From positions 124,001 to 188,000 of the forward strand of contig NZ_NIHE01000001.1 in NCBI RefSeq assembly GCF_002806995.1: DNA of 64,000 nt. The letters are read 5' to 3'. A model generated the notes under the pieces. The model was not told where the DNA came from. It made no database searches and saw only the letters and a program-made list of their open reading frames with translations. The translations under genes were made by a program, and so were the position numbers. This DNA comes from Confluentibacter lentus. GTDB taxonomy: Bacteria > Bacteroidota > Bacteroidia > Flavobacteriales > Flavobacteriaceae. Below, piece by piece: positions 7,096 to 43,338 of the stretch (the stretch's first letter is position 1; each line of letters begins with the position of its first letter).

Positions 7096-8178
7096 TTAAC
7101 CATTTATAATCTTCTCTTGATGATTGATGGATTCTTGATGAATAGCCTTAAACATTTTTAAAACAAATTCTTCGCTTAATCCTTTAGATTCTCCTTCAAG
7201 AACCATTTTACCTAATATTTCATTCCAACGTTTAGATTGTAAAACAGCCACGTTTTTTTGTTTTTTAAGGGCTCCAATACTATCGGCAGCTTTCATACGC
7301 TTACCTAACAAATCTATAATTTGATTATCAACAATATCAATTTGAGCTCTTAAATTATCAAGTTGCTTATTGTAATCCGCTTCTGGATCGCTCTCTTTTT
7401 TTATTTTCAAATCTTTCATAATTTGAATCAACACTTTTGGTGTTACTTGCTGAGACGCATCACTCCAAGCATTATCTGGATCAAAATGGGTTTCAATCAT
7501 GAGTCCGTCAAAATTCAAATCCAATGCCGTTTGCGACACATCAAAAATCATATCACGTTTTCCTGTAATGTGCGATGGATCGTTAATTATTGGTAAATCT
7601 GGAAACTTGGTTTGCAACTCGATTGCCAATTGCCATTCTGGATTGTTTCTATATTTTGTTTTTTCGTAAGTTGAAAATCCTCTATGGATAACGCCTAATT
7701 TTTTAATGTTGGCCGTTGCCAAACGCTCAATCGCGCCCAACCACAACGGCAAATCTGGATTTACTGGGTTTTTTACCAATATAATTTTATCGGTTCCTTG
7801 TAAAGCATCGGCAATTTCTTGAACGATAAAAGGACTCACTGTAGAACGCGCACCAATCCATAATAAATCGACATCATGTTCTAAAGCCAATTTTACGTGG
7901 GCAGCGTTAGCAACTTCGGTCGCTGTTTTCATACCCGTTTCATCTTTTACTTTTTGCAACCATTTCAAACCTAAAGCACCAACACCTTCAAACATGCCTG
8001 GTCTTGTTCTTGGTTTCCAAATACCTGCTCTATAATAGTTAACATCCGTATCTTTTAGCTCATGAGCTATCCTTAACACTTGTTCTTCAGTTTCGGCACT
8101 GCATGGTCCTGCGATAACCAAAGGATGATCTAATTTTAAATCATCTAACCAGCCTCTTAATTCCTTCTTGTTTTCCAT
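7096..8178 (-). CDS. bifunctional 3-deoxy-7-phosphoheptulonate synthase / chorismate mutase
   Basis: Catalyses the first step of the shikimate pathway (PEP plus erythrose 4-phosphate) and the chorismate-to-prephenate rearrangement. Residues 1 to about 255 are a type Ibeta DAHP synthase domain (VIAGPCSAE, GIWKPRTRPG, NDPSHITGKRD). The last 95 or so residues are an AroQ-type chorismate mutase helix bundle (LRAQIDIVDNQIIDLLGKR...IHQES). I chose the ATG at 8178 (MENKKELRGWLDDL), which matches the family start. An in-frame ATG at 8211 would add 11 poorly conserved residues. It is the last gene of the operon. The fusion places branch-point and entry enzymes in one chain, a form in which prephenate or chorismate feedback is common. 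Confidence 0.95.
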   Translation of the reverse strand: MENKKELRGWLDDLKLDHPLVIAGPCSAETEEQVLRIAHELKDTDVNYYRAGIWKPRTRPGMFEGVGALGLKWLQKVKDETGMKTATEVANAAHVKLALEHDVDLLWIGARSTVSPFIVQEIADALQGTDKIILVKNPVNPDLPLWLGAIERLATANIKKLGVIHRGFSTYEKTKYRNNPEWQLAIELQTKFPDLPIINDPSHITGKRDMIFDVSQTALDLNFDGLMIETHFDPDNAWSDASQQVTPKVLIQIMKDLKIKKESDPEADYNKQLDNLRAQIDIVDNQIIDLLGKRMKAADSIGALKKQKNVAVLQSKRWNEILGKMVLEGESKGLSEEFVLKMFKAIHQESINHQEKIING

Positions 8179-8271
8179 AATCTTTAATAAAATTTCAAAA
8201 TTAAATTCCAAATTCCAAATCTTTATATTTTTTATAAATTGGATTTTAAAATTTTGTTTTGGGTTTTGTTT

Positions 8272-9123
8272 TTAAATAATTCCGTTTAAAATGTCTTTTA
8301 TATGATTGGTGTTTTTCATCTCATTATAAATGGCTTCAAAGTCATCTTCTTTCATCATATCCCTAAAATGAGTGAGATTTGTAATATATTCTTCTAATGA
8401 TTCAATAACATTCTCTTTGTTTTGTCTGAATATGGGAGACCACATTTCTGGTGAACTTTTAGCCAATCTTACTGTTGAAGCAAATCCACTACCTGCCATA
8501 TCGAAAATATCGCGTTCATTTTTTTCTTTTTCAATAACGGTTTTCCCCAACATAAATGAGCTAATATGCGATAAATGAGAAACATATGCAATATGCTTAT
8601 CATGTGAGTCTGGATTCATACGTCTCAATTTCATACCAATTGCGGTAAAAAAATCCAATACCTTATTTTTAAGAGCTTCATCTGTTTTATCTTCTTCACA
8701 AATGATATTTGTTTTATTCTGAAACAAATTATATATAGCTGCTTTTGGTCCAGAGTATTCAGTACCTGCAATAGGATGCATCGCTAAAAAGTGTTTTCTT
8801 TTAGGGTGATTTTCAACCACTTTACAAATTGCTTCTTTCGTTGACCCAACATCAATGACCAATCCTGTTTCCGATATTTTGTCTAAAAGCGTTGGCAATA
8901 ATTTTACGGATGCATCAACAGGTATGGAAAGAATCACTAAATCAGCATTAGGAATATCATCAATAGTTGCTTTTCTATCAATTAAATTAAGCGCCAAAGC
9001 TTCATCAAGTGTTGATTCTTTTCTACTTATGCCATAAATAGTGACCGTTGGGTCTAGCCTTTTAATTTCTAAAGCTAGACTCCCACCAATTAAACCAACT
9101 CCTATGATGTATATATTTTTCAT
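8272..9123 (-). CDS. tyrA: prephenate dehydrogenase
   Basis: Oxidative decarboxylation of prephenate to 4-hydroxyphenylpyruvate, for tyrosine. The NAD(P)-binding motif GVGLIGGS (8-15) and the family motif HPIAGTE (116-122) are present. At 283 residues it is monofunctional: there is no chorismate mutase domain and no clear C-terminal ACT domain. Chorismate mutase is supplied by the next gene. It sits between the aminotransferase and DAHP synthase-mutase genes, downstream of the Phe/Tyr attenuator. Confidence 0.95.
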   Translation of the reverse strand: MKNIYIIGVGLIGGSLALEIKRLDPTVTIYGISRKESTLDEALALNLIDRKATIDDIPNADLVILSIPVDASVKLLPTLLDKISETGLVIDVGSTKEAICKVVENHPKRKHFLAMHPIAGTEYSGPKAAIYNLFQNKTNIICEEDKTDEALKNKVLDFFTAIGMKLRRMNPDSHDKHIAYVSHLSHISSFMLGKTVIEKEKNERDIFDMAGSGFASTVRLAKSSPEMWSPIFRQNKENVIESLEEYITNLTHFRDMMKEDDFEAIYNEMKNTNHIKDILNGII

Positions 9124-9168: not shown

Positions 9169-10314
9169 TTATTTCACTCTTTTTATAGCTTCCTCCAATT
9201 CTTCTTCTGAAGCGCATAAAGAAAACCTGATATATCCTTCGCCTTTGGTTCCAAAAATAGTTCCCGGTGTAATGAATATATAATTGTTTTTTAATACCGA
9301 ATCAATAAATTCTTCAGACTTTACATTTGAAGGCAGCTTTGCCCAAACAAACAATCCAGTTGCTTGTTCATCATACGTACAGTTTAATGCTTTTGCCAAT
9401 TTCCACACCAGCTCCCTACGTTTTCTGTAAACACTATTTAAGGTAACAAACCACATGCTTGAACATTTCAAGGCTTCAATAGCACCTTTTTGGATACCAT
9501 AAAACATCCCAGAATCCATATTGCTTTTAACTTTTAAAATATGACTTATATAATTGCTGTCGCCTACAACCATACCAACACGCCAGCCAGCCATATTAAA
9601 AGTTTTACTTAGCGAATTAAGCTCTAAACAAACCTCTTTTGCTCCCGCAATGTTCATAATACTTTTAGGTGAATCATTCAGTACAAAACTATACGGATTA
9701 TCATTAATAATCAATATATTATGTTTTTTAGCAAAAGCAATTAAATCTTTAAATAACTTATCTGTAGCGCCTGCTCCTGTTGGCATATGTGGATAATTTA
9801 CCCACATTAACTTTACCTTACTTAAATCTTGTTTTTCAATGGCTTTAAAATCTGGAAACCAATGGTTGGCTTCATCAAGATCATAAAGAAATGTTTTGGC
9901 TCCGACTAAATTTGTCACCGATTGATAGGTTGGATATCCCGGATTCGGAATTAAAACCCCATCACCTTCATTCAAAAAAGCCATAGAAATGTGCATGATG
10001 CCTTCCTTACTTCCCATTAATGGTAAAATCTCGGTTGTAGGGCTTAAAGACACATTAAAATGGTCTTTATAGAATTTAGCCATACCTTCCCTTAAAGCTG
10101 GCAAACCTTGATAACTCTGGTATTGATGTGCTTTAGCATCTTGCAAACCTTCAATTAAAGCATCAACCACTTTTTGAGGTGGTGCCATATCTGGGCTACC
10201 AATACCTAAGTTAATAACGGGTTTTCCACTGGCAATAAGCATCCCAACCTCCCTTAGTTTTTTTGAGAAGTAGTATTCTTCAACCGTGTTCAATCTATTG
10301 GCAGCTTCAATCAT
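9169..10314 (-). CDS. class I/II PLP aminotransferase of the Phe/Tyr operon
   Basis: A fold-type I pyridoxal-phosphate aminotransferase of 381 residues. The PLP lysine is Lys237 in SLSKTFNMAGWRVG, and the substrate/cofactor region NYPHMPTGA is at 173-181. Its start overlaps the pheA stop by 4 bases (ATGA), so it is translationally coupled. From this context I infer that it makes Phe and Tyr from phenylpyruvate and hydroxyphenylpyruvate, or acts on prephenate. The family also contains diaminopimelate, aspartate and methionine aminotransferases, so the exact substrate is not fixed by sequence. Confidence 0.88.
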   Translation of the reverse strand: MIEAANRLNTVEEYYFSKKLREVGMLIASGKPVINLGIGSPDMAPPQKVVDALIEGLQDAKAHQYQSYQGLPALREGMAKFYKDHFNVSLSPTTEILPLMGSKEGIMHISMAFLNEGDGVLIPNPGYPTYQSVTNLVGAKTFLYDLDEANHWFPDFKAIEKQDLSKVKLMWVNYPHMPTGAGATDKLFKDLIAFAKKHNILIINDNPYSFVLNDSPKSIMNIAGAKEVCLELNSLSKTFNMAGWRVGMVVGDSNYISHILKVKSNMDSGMFYGIQKGAIEALKCSSMWFVTLNSVYRKRRELVWKLAKALNCTYDEQATGLFVWAKLPSNVKSEEFIDSVLKNNYIFITPGTIFGTKGEGYIRFSLCASEEELEEAIKRVK

Positions 10315-11138
10315 TTTTTTGCATTTTTATATTCACCCAATACTTTAAAATTAATGGCCATAATGTCTATAATAGATTTTGCTTTTTTAAAATCGGCATA
10401 CGTTTCAAAAGTAACATCCACAAAAAAAGCATATTTCCAAGGTGTCTCTATAATGGGCATGGATTGTATTTTGGTCAAATTCAATTTACAATCGCTCATC
10501 ACATTCAATATGGTTGCTAAACTGCCGCGTTTATGGTCTGCTTCAAATTTTAATGACGCTTTATTAATTTCATGTTCTGGAACTTCAGAATTTACTCTTT
10601 TTACAATCGCAAATCTGGTTTCATTATGTTTTATGGTTTGAATGCTGTGCGCCAATATATCCAATTCAAAAATTTCCGCAGCCATAACACTCGCAATAGC
10701 ACCAACATTTTTAAGCTGTTGTTTATGAATACGCTCTGAAACCTCAGCCGTATCTTTATCTTCAACAAGTTTGATATGCGGATAATCCTTAAAAAATTCT
10801 TTGCACTGCAACAAAGCCATAGGATGCGAATACACTTCCTTAATATCTTCGATAGTTTGATTCGGCAACGCCATCAAATTATGCTGAATATCCAAATAAT
10901 GTTCGCCCACAATATGCAAATCGTATTTATCGATTAGTGCATAATTTGGCAAAATGGAGCCTGCAATGGAATTTTCCAAAGCCATAATTACAGCATCGCT
11001 CTCATTTGTTACTAGGGATTCCACAACCCCATCAAAAGTCATACATTCAATAACATCAACAGGCTTTTCAAAATATTGCAATGACACAATATGGTGAAAA
11101 GATCCTCTAATTCCTTGTATGGCAACCGTTTTTATCAT
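10311..11138 (-). CDS. pheA: prephenate dehydratase
   Basis: Converts prephenate to phenylpyruvate for phenylalanine. The N-terminal 185 residues are the dehydratase domain with ENSIAGS (55-61) and the catalytic TRF motif (174-176). The C-terminal ACT domain (from about 195: GSLATILNVMSDCKLNLTKI) is the Phe-binding allosteric part, although the usual ESRP is here QSMP. There is no chorismate mutase domain. The ATG lies only a few bases after the T-run of the attenuator terminator, and the gene is first in the four-gene operon. Confidence 0.96.
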   Translation of the reverse strand: MIKTVAIQGIRGSFHHIVSLQYFEKPVDVIECMTFDGVVESLVTNESDAVIMALENSIAGSILPNYALIDKYDLHIVGEHYLDIQHNLMALPNQTIEDIKEVYSHPMALLQCKEFFKDYPHIKLVEDKDTAEVSERIHKQQLKNVGAIASVMAAEIFELDILAHSIQTIKHNETRFAIVKRVNSEVPEHEINKASLKFEADHKRGSLATILNVMSDCKLNLTKIQSMPIIETPWKYAFFVDVTFETYADFKKAKSIIDIMAINFKVLGEYKNAKK

Positions 11139-11141
11139 ACA

Positions 11142-11171
11142 TAAAAAAAGTCCCGATTTTCATCGAGACTT
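11142..11171 (-). terminator. attenuator terminator in the pheA leader
   Basis: On the minus strand AAGTCTCGAT pairs with ATCGGGACTT (10 bp, one G-U) around a GAAA-type tetraloop, followed at once by T7 and then the pheA ATG at 11138. The 5' arm contains GTCTCGAT, which can instead pair with ATCGAGGC at 11208-11215 inside the leader reading frame. That would form an antiterminator. Confidence 0.85.
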
Positions 11172-11194
11172 ATATTAAATTTATATCCTATAAA

Positions 11195-11272
11195 TTATAC
11201 ATACAACGCCTCGATCCTTTTGCTAAAAAAGAAATAAAAGTTGCTAAAATATGTATAATACGCTGTTCTCAT
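11195..11272 (-). CDS. Phe/Tyr-rich leader peptide of the pheA operon
   Basis: A 25-codon frame from the ATG at 11272 to TAA at 11195. It begins MRTAYYTYFSNFYFFFS; five Tyr and five Phe make up 10 of 25 residues, most of them in codons 5-16. Codons 20-22 carry ATCGAGGC, which is complementary to the 5' arm of the downstream terminator. Ribosomes stalled on Phe or Tyr codons would leave this segment free to form the antiterminator. Ribosomes reaching the stop would cover it and let the terminator fold. It is too short for standard gene callers. The role is inferred, but composition, position and pairing all fit. Confidence 0.85.
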   Translation of the reverse strand: MRTAYYTYFSNFYFFFSKRIEALYV

Positions 11273-11282
11273 AATTACGCCG

Positions 11283-11313
11283 CTAAAGTAACTAATATTT
11301 TAATATATCAAAA
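11283..11313 (-). promoter_or_regulatory. promoter of the pheA operon (TTTTG, 18-base spacer, TACTTTAG)
   Basis: On the minus strand a -33 element TTTTG (11309-11313) is followed by an 18-base AT-rich spacer and TACTTTAG (11283-11290), one mismatch from TAnnTTTG. The predicted start would leave a 5' leader of only a few bases before the leader-peptide ATG. It is divergent from gldA. Confidence 0.6.
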
Positions 11314-23780: not shown

Positions 23781-23842
23781 TTTTGATATTTTTGATATTT
23801 TATATCTGCATGTCATCAAGAAAAGTAAAAGAAATACTTTTC

Positions 23843-23977
23843 GTTATCTTTCTGAATAGTTCCTGAAATACATTCAGAACATGCAGTAGAACGTAGCACC
23901 TTCTTCATCCAGATAACTACCGGAAAAAGGGTTGCCAAGGCTTCAACGGGTCTATTCCCTCTACCTTTCTTGATAAC
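23843..23977 (-). promoter_or_regulatory. SAM-I (S-box) riboswitch upstream of split metH
   Basis: On the minus strand the S-box core is present: AAGAAAGG after the P1 5' arm GTTATC, then GAGGGA, GACCC, GAAGCC, TTGGCAACC and GGTGCTA followed by TTCTAC. The P1 3' arm GATAAC closes the aptamer at 23843-23848, and a P4-like hairpin (GTTCTGAA with TTCAGGAAC) precedes it. Downstream GAAAAGTA and TACTTTTC form an 8-bp hairpin without a good T-run, so the output may be translational or use a weak terminator. It should lower metH expression when SAM is high. Confidence 0.92.
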
Positions 23978-24005
23978 ATAATTAATACGTTTATGAACGA
24001 GCGAA

Positions 24006-43022: not shown

Positions 43023-43139
43023 TTTTCTAATTTTTTAGTTAATAATTAAACGAACCAAAAGTCAAATGCATCAAATTTGATGTACTTAATAGAAAAATGT
43101 TAAAAAGAAATAGGAAATTACCGTGAGCAATTTCGTTTG

Positions 43140-43258
43140 GTTATCTATCCATTAATTCCGAAAAATGATTCAGAAGTGGGTAGAATTTAGCACCTTCTTT
43201 ACTGATAAAGGGTTGCTAAGGCTTCACAGGGTCTAATCCCTCCACCTTTCTTGATAAC
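43140..43258 (-). promoter_or_regulatory. SAM-I (S-box) riboswitch upstream of metY
   Basis: Minus strand: P1 arm GTTATC, then AAGAAAGGTGGAGGGA, GACCC, GAAGCC, TTAGCAACCC and GGTGCTA followed by TTCTAC, closed by GATAAC at 43140-43145. Downstream GAAATT and AATTTC form a short hairpin followed by a T-rich stretch, a possible weak terminator. It should repress metY and metX-thrA when SAM is plentiful. The whole 316-base gap between the neighbouring genes is explained by this element and its leader. Confidence 0.93.
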
Positions 43259-43338
43259 ATTTCAATATGTTTTTGAACTTTGTGAATGCAAATATTCAGT
43301 CAGAAAAATTTAAAATCCTAATTTTTTGAATATTTTTT

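Follow-up and report, generated by a model that had tools for sequence, protein, structure and literature searches.

Among described systems, the enterobacterial pheA leader (Rfam family RF01859) is a short reading frame rich in codons for the product of the operon, followed by alternative RNA pairings and a terminator ahead of pheA, and the same features were found upstream of a pheA-like gene of Confluentibacter lentus. The two differ in that the C. lentus frame carries both Phe and Tyr codons and precedes an operon that should make both amino acids, whereas the enterobacterial leader, to our knowledge, has no Tyr codons. That one leader should read several amino acids has parallels in the ilv and thr leaders and in the Leu/phe leader (RF01743), but these concern other amino acids and other organisms, RF01743 appearing in a published table as an entry for Lactococcus lactis. 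An attenuator survey by Vitreschak and colleagues in 2004 is said to name Bacteroidetes.

In the same phylum, Bacteroid-trp (RF01692, ‘Bacteroidete tryptophan peptide leader RNA’; listed in a passage of PMC2864571) is likewise a peptide leader of an amino-acid operon, and it occurs in the C. lentus genome itself, but it carries Trp codons and precedes another gene. Passages of two further papers mention leader-like short frames in Bacteroides thetaiotaomicron (PMC7366714) and, without naming pheA, a survey of leader genes that includes Bacteroidetes (PMC4833913). A study of 2021 comes closest: its main-text passages describe structured 5′ elements in Flavobacterium psychrophilum, those of pheA and hisG being present in other Flavobacteriaceae and without a match in Rfam, and offer strong indications that leader peptides attenuate amino-acid operons (PMC9723704). 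Its pheA element belongs to the same gene and the same family as the leader described here, but these passages do not describe a Phe/Tyr frame, the helices or matched change of their strands. The remark in the original prediction that its author knew of no described case in this family is therefore only partly right. Of the Phe/Tyr leader itself, no published description in Bacteroidota was found in the titles, abstract openings and passages of the matches listed. The type of attenuator is known, and in these sources its Phe/Tyr detail, reach and spacing were not found described.

Parts of the leader and the operon that follows

The window, a 64-kb stretch of C. lentus DNA, contains the leader on its minus strand, to which all coordinates in this section refer. 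At the upstream end a promoter-like TTG of the −33 type (11309–11311) is separated by an 18-nt gap from TACTTTAG (11283–11290), a promoter-like element of the −7 type that has a single mismatch to the Bacteroidota consensus TAnnTTTG. The leader frame that follows, MRTAYYTYFSNFYFFFSKRIEALYV (11195–11272), has 25 codons, five of them for Phe and five for Tyr; all ten had been placed in codons 5–16, but only nine lie there, the tenth being a Tyr codon at position 24. Codons 20–22 hold region 2, ATCGAGGC (11208–11215), which can form an 8-bp antiterminator, including one G-U pair, with GTCTCGAT (11162–11169). The latter is also part of region 3, AAGTCTCGAT (11162–11171), the 5′ arm of an intrinsic terminator of 10 bp, AAGTCTCGAT-GAAA-ATCGGGACTT (11148–11171), which has a GAAA loop, region 4, ATCGGGACTT (11148–11157), as its 3′ arm and a run of seven T (11143–11149). 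As GTCTCGAT is competed for by region 2 of the leader frame and by the 3′ arm of the terminator, the two helices are mutually exclusive. All four predicted parts, the promoter-like pair, the frame, the antiterminator and the terminator, were thus found again at their coordinates. The T run does not directly precede the start codon of pheA, as had been supposed, since the ATG at 11142 is out of frame and the pheA ORF begins at 11138, 4 nt beyond it.

A third, putative helix, absent from the original prediction, joins region 1, ATTATACATA (11250–11259), in the segment of Tyr codons 5–8, to TATGTATAAT (11194–11203), which lies across the end of the leader frame at its stop codon. With this 10-bp helix, referred to as the 1:2 helix and seen in the close group of relatives, the arrangement would come to look like the complete trp/phe design. 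Folding of the 184-nt leader RNA gave a z-score of −2.47, a value equalled by 5 of 200 shuffled sequences.

Four ORFs, whose functions are presumed from their sequences, make up the operon: a pheA-like prephenate dehydratase gene comes first (10311–11138), followed by an aminotransferase gene (9169–10314), a tyrA-like prephenate dehydrogenase gene (8272–9123) and a fusion of DAHP synthase and chorismate mutase (7096–8211). With the window PheA as query, the best 80 named loci were kept, the closest being the metagenome-assembled genome ‘Flavobacteriales bacterium 32-35-8’ (99% PheA identity) and Confluentibacter species. Downstream of pheA, relatives of the aminotransferase, tyrA-like and fusion genes were present in 80, 79 and 77 of these 80 loci, respectively, the last often being partial within the 2.5 kb examined. 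Given these genes, Phe as well as Tyr should be products of the operon, and the presence of both kinds of codon in the leader agrees with its gene content, as originally suggested.

The Phe/Tyr frame in relatives

The prediction had been staked on conservation of the leader upstream of pheA in other Flavobacteriaceae. Of 199 family genomes, 178 gave a match to the window PheA, and upstream regions were taken from 150 of these, leaving out the 28 most divergent; a total of 230 family loci came down to 211 once those identical over the 140 nt nearest the gene had been collapsed. A frame that starts with ATG and has six or more Phe/Tyr within 14 codons was present in 206 of the 211 distinct regions, so the frame is conserved in the family. 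Among the five regions that did not score, a contig end truncates two (L076 and L118), in which the terminator is still present, as is the end of the leader frame in L118; in L184 the frame lies further upstream. Only Gelidibacter salicanalis (L080) and L204 were real misses with no Phe/Tyr frame. The frame was also present in all of six additional family loci, and one of the 28 divergent genomes (G119), added later as L289, has a leader.

Outside the family the frame extends, less uniformly, over the class Bacteroidia. PheA was matched in 33 of 119 genomes of a class set (two, G300 and G222, were left out) and in 128 of 148 genomes of a wider set, from which 13 of 30 loci were scanned, the other 17 being genomes already covered. 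Scoring frames were found in 23 of 34 class loci outside the family, comprising 17 of 27 with 450 nt searched and 6 of 7 with 600 nt searched, so that 10 and 1, respectively, lacked one. Two of the ten (L240 and L248) have short Phe/Tyr/Trp frames followed by a terminator-like hairpin and are possibly leaders. Two order-level loci had no Phe/Tyr frame in the 600 nt searched. Beyond the class, 28 of the 95 genomes with a match were examined, picked to spread over families, and 3 of the 28 regions reached a score of at least six within 600 nt; this test is weak because many of the other 25 have a fused PheA, so that the 600 nt partly cover coding sequence. The three out-of-class genomes with a Phe/Tyr-rich frame (L288/L305, L296 and L326) are also those in which PheA scored highest outside the class, and judging from these sequences operon and leader may have been transferred to them together.

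Chance accounts for little of this enrichment. The threshold was reached by 224 of 239 family and class regions, compared with 99 of 1195 dinucleotide shuffles and 16 of the 239 opposite strands. When nine other residue pairs were counted in the 239 regions, the best was Asn/Tyr, which has Tyr in common with the pair of interest, with 77 regions at six or more. At least two Phe and at least two Tyr are present in 222 of the 224 leaders. For each residue both synonymous codons occur (TTT 816, TTC 350, TAT 716 and TAC 142 times), and a Trp codon is also present in 125 leaders.

A relaxed form of the promoter, TTG-N16-21-TANNTT[TA]G, picked after the window had been seen, occurred in the 120 nt preceding the leader in 158 of the 224 cases, compared with 4.1 of 224 in mononucleotide shuffles. 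With the stricter TTG-N16-21-TANNTTT the figures were 35 of 224 and 16.1 in shuffles.

Competing helices and the spacing of the Phe/Tyr codons

A terminator-like hairpin follows the frame in all 224 family and class regions under a lenient rule, and at a terminator score of at least 26 the count was 220 of 224, as opposed to 10 of 1120 shuffles. An alignment was made of 78 leaders of the close group, of which 77 distinct rows were counted; L015 had been cut back to match the frame in related leaders, and L076 and L080 were omitted because they lack a leader. In this alignment 100% of the cells of the terminator were paired, and so were 91.9% of those of the extended antiterminator, compared with at most 51.4% when it was slid along, the pair at columns 65 and 119 being unpaired in 55 of the 77 rows. 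Within the alignment no pair of either helix had changed on both sides, and the two are therefore conserved at this distance but not covarying. The 10-bp 1:2 helix was paired in 95.1% of its cells, and 11 cells had changed on both sides; the covariation score of this helix taken together with a 4-bp extension was reached by 1 of 500 shuffles. The extension itself was dropped, as only 53% of its cells were paired.

Pairing energies were compared with those of shuffled sequences over the full set of leaders. For the antiterminator, no more than 3 of 60 shuffles were as good as the native sequence in 167 of 224 leaders, and more than half were as good in only two leaders, whereas for the 1:2 helix the same low count was obtained in only 106 of 224. 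In a near-twin of the window leader the antiterminator was equalled by none of 60 shuffles and the 1:2 pairing by 10. In most of 16 folded examples (one of them, L208, misplaced by the script) the terminator was formed together with a hairpin of the 1:2 type, and the antiterminator appeared once region 4 was omitted; in L223 the 1:2 hairpin was kept instead.

Over larger distances the paired strands do change, and they change in step. Region 3 of the 224 leaders has the core GTCTCG in 143, GTCCCG in 41, GTCCTG in 16 and others in 24, so its diversity is limited, three cores covering 200 leaders; the 69 region-3 strings are in many cases nested, 33 of them not being contained in another. With GTCTCG in region 3, region 2 has CGAGAC or CGAGGC in 115 of 143 leaders, and with GTCCCG it has CGGGAC or CGGGGC in 25 of 41, while 23 of the 143 and 16 of the 41 had none of the six-base region-2 partners sought. 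Moreover, region 2 paired with its own region 3 at a score of at least 14 in 95% of the 224 leaders, compared with 30% of 2240 draws of a partner that shared no 6-mer. Both the core matches and the comparison of native with swapped pairing indicate that regions 2 and 3, and through the hairpin region 4, change together over a limited number of cores. The check for covariation of both stems, as originally proposed, thus came out positive between lineages, where antiterminator and terminator strands change together, but not within the close alignment.

Region 2 starts on average 13.5 nt, with a standard deviation of 1.9, from the first nucleotide of the Phe/Tyr codon that most closely precedes it. 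In 69 representatives, one leader for each paired string, this distance was 13.2 nt with a standard deviation of 2.8, compared with standard deviations of 8.5 and 9.0 for the distances of region 2 to the stop and start codons. As the leaders are full of Phe and Tyr, controls with swapped partners and random positions were added. In 86% of the 224 leaders region 2 began 12–15 nt past the last Phe/Tyr codon; swapped partners gave 33% and random positions 13%. Among the 69 representatives the values were 68%, 47% and 12%, so that the contrast with random positions stays clear and the advantage over swapped partners shrinks. Swapped partners seem often still to match the same G-rich stretch, which would weaken the contrast. 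A ribosome with that codon in its A site would cover about as many nucleotides ahead of it. The spacing therefore fits the reach of a stalled ribosome and predicts that one sitting at the control codons would leave region 2 free.

Predicted mechanism, alternatives and other leaders of the genome

The ribosome-mediated logic of enterobacterial pheA leaders, proposed for this locus from the start, is supported by the anatomy, the conservation, the matched strands and the spacing between the last Phe/Tyr codon and region 2, and as far as sequence can tell the element is very probably a transcription attenuator of this known type serving the Phe/Tyr biosynthesis operon. RNA polymerase would start just upstream of the leader frame with a ribosome following it. 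With ample charged Phe- and Tyr-tRNA the ribosome should reach the end of the leader and cover region 2, leaving regions 3 and 4 to form the terminator, and transcription would stop before pheA. Should either tRNA run short, the ribosome would wait within codons 5–16 with its front edge at about the start of region 2, which would then be free to pair with region 3, so that no terminator would form and the operon would be transcribed. In a leader that is not translated, region 2 would be held in the 1:2 hairpin and the terminator would form.

The same RNA switch could in principle be driven by the nascent leader peptide, if this arrested the ribosome in the manner of TnaC or SecM and sensed free Phe or Tyr or some other signal. 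The strong conservation of the peptide core YTYF..(W)FYFFFS in the close group, and the narrow range of the distance from the last Phe codon to region 2, are what such an arrest would predict. Over the family and class, however, the peptides vary widely (for example MTKQYFWNGFYFYFFFKRSTGLF, MNTNFFYYNNFYYFYTEAGRTL and MKLFNTYYFGYFYYFSKSRG), keeping their richness in Phe and Tyr with no fixed arrest motif seen by inspection, and the genome's own His and Trp leaders, described below, obey codon logic. Arrest by the peptide is thus very improbable.

Slightly less probable still is a switch in translation, in which the hairpin would hide the start site of pheA and not act on transcription. In the window the hairpin does lie where a ribosome would land, its T run ending 4 nt before the pheA ATG. 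Over the set of 224 leaders, however, the spacer between the T run and the beginning of the PheA match measures anything from 0 to 238 nt (median 29), being 30 nt or longer in 111 of them, whereas the 78 aligned leaders retain a T run, and a spacer of such variable length disfavours control at the start codon.

A conserved frame with its own promoter-like sequence might also be an ordinary small protein gene with a function of its own, the hairpin being its terminator. It is hard to reconcile this with the peptide, of which across the class only the Phe/Tyr content is kept, or with the match of region 2, inside the frame, to region 3. Furthermore, in four leaders (L023, L038, L040 and L051) a stop codon comes directly after ...FFFS and the region-2 RNA is retained, so that in these whatever follows the Phe/Tyr cluster has been preserved at the level of RNA and not of protein. 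We consider a small protein gene very unlikely. Three further leaders (L057, L066 and L069) likewise have an earlier stop codon, with little change in the region-2 RNA, and these seven leaders offer a natural test of whether constraint acts on the frame or on the RNA.

Riboswitch and T-box aptamers and protein-bound leaders commonly act through a terminator and a pairing that competes with it. Control of this kind is barely credible here, given that what has been conserved is a frame with many codons for the amino acids of the operon, that no Rfam family reached its gathering score at the pheA leader in a scan of the 64-kb window, and that the seven sub-threshold matches of a permissive scan of 321 bases at the leader include no T-box or riboswitch. 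In these scans Phe_leader (RF01859) scored 15.9 bits on the pheA leader, below its cut-off of 55, and Bacteroid-trp (RF01692) had no match in the window and was not among the seven weak ones.

With ribosome-mediated attenuation as the preferred reading, the locus offers what appears to be a clear and deeply conserved case in Bacteroidota, in which Phe and Tyr would be read by one leader. A bolder version, which we regard as possible but on balance doubtful, is that such attenuators form a family across the class Bacteroidia that senses the three aromatic amino acids jointly, Phe and Tyr throughout and Trp where the leader has Trp codons, with translation tracking transcription closely. Sensing of Trp is conceivable because the operon includes the common first (DAHP) step and because of the Trp codons in over half of the leaders, and on this reading the narrow spacing of 12–15 nt would mean that translation must keep close to transcription. 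We know of little direct evidence for transcription–translation coupling in Bacteroidota, which becomes directly testable here with a small reporter, with some two hundred natural leader variants in hand.

The pheA leader is also a candidate for a new Rfam family. A covariance model built from the close group and run against the genome (150 of 5490 first-look candidates being scored) gave one strong site, at pheA (E-value 2.6e-20), and a weak site of 77 bases (E-value 0.05) that was taken as chance.

Other amino-acid operons of the same genome were inspected by eye for ATG frames of 10–60 codons in the 250–330 nt upstream. Ahead of hisG the leader MTFIQAHHHHFQICTQAN (L260), with HHHH, is followed by a terminator-like hairpin, and no Rfam family matched it at gathering score. 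A trpE-like gene has the leader MNTILNNTWWWSFRNLNFVK with WWW (L261, 1058–1182), again with a terminator-like hairpin behind it; this one is Bacteroid-trp (RF01692, 61.8 bits) and served as a positive control. Upstream of a thrA-like gene (L328) the frame MHLNQNTRIAASSINEGHTSIFVIATTTTTLWGC contains five consecutive Thr codons with Ile codons nearby and is probably a Thr/Ile leader. The same inspection revealed no frame enriched in a matching amino acid upstream of two ilvD-like, a second trpE-like and two leuA-like genes or of two further aspartokinase genes. Taken with the pheA leader, those for His and Trp and the probable one for Thr suggest enterobacterial-style control of several amino-acid operons in this group.

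Two SAM riboswitches (RF00162) were found in the window at gathering score, both on the minus strand: one at 23841–23979 (68.0 bits) before what is presumably a pair of methionine-synthase-like ORFs, and one at 43138–43260 (71.8 bits) before a gene that we take to be O-acetylhomoserine-sulfhydrylase-like, followed by a large fused ORF, presumably acetyltransferase/aspartokinase/homoserine-dehydrogenase-like.
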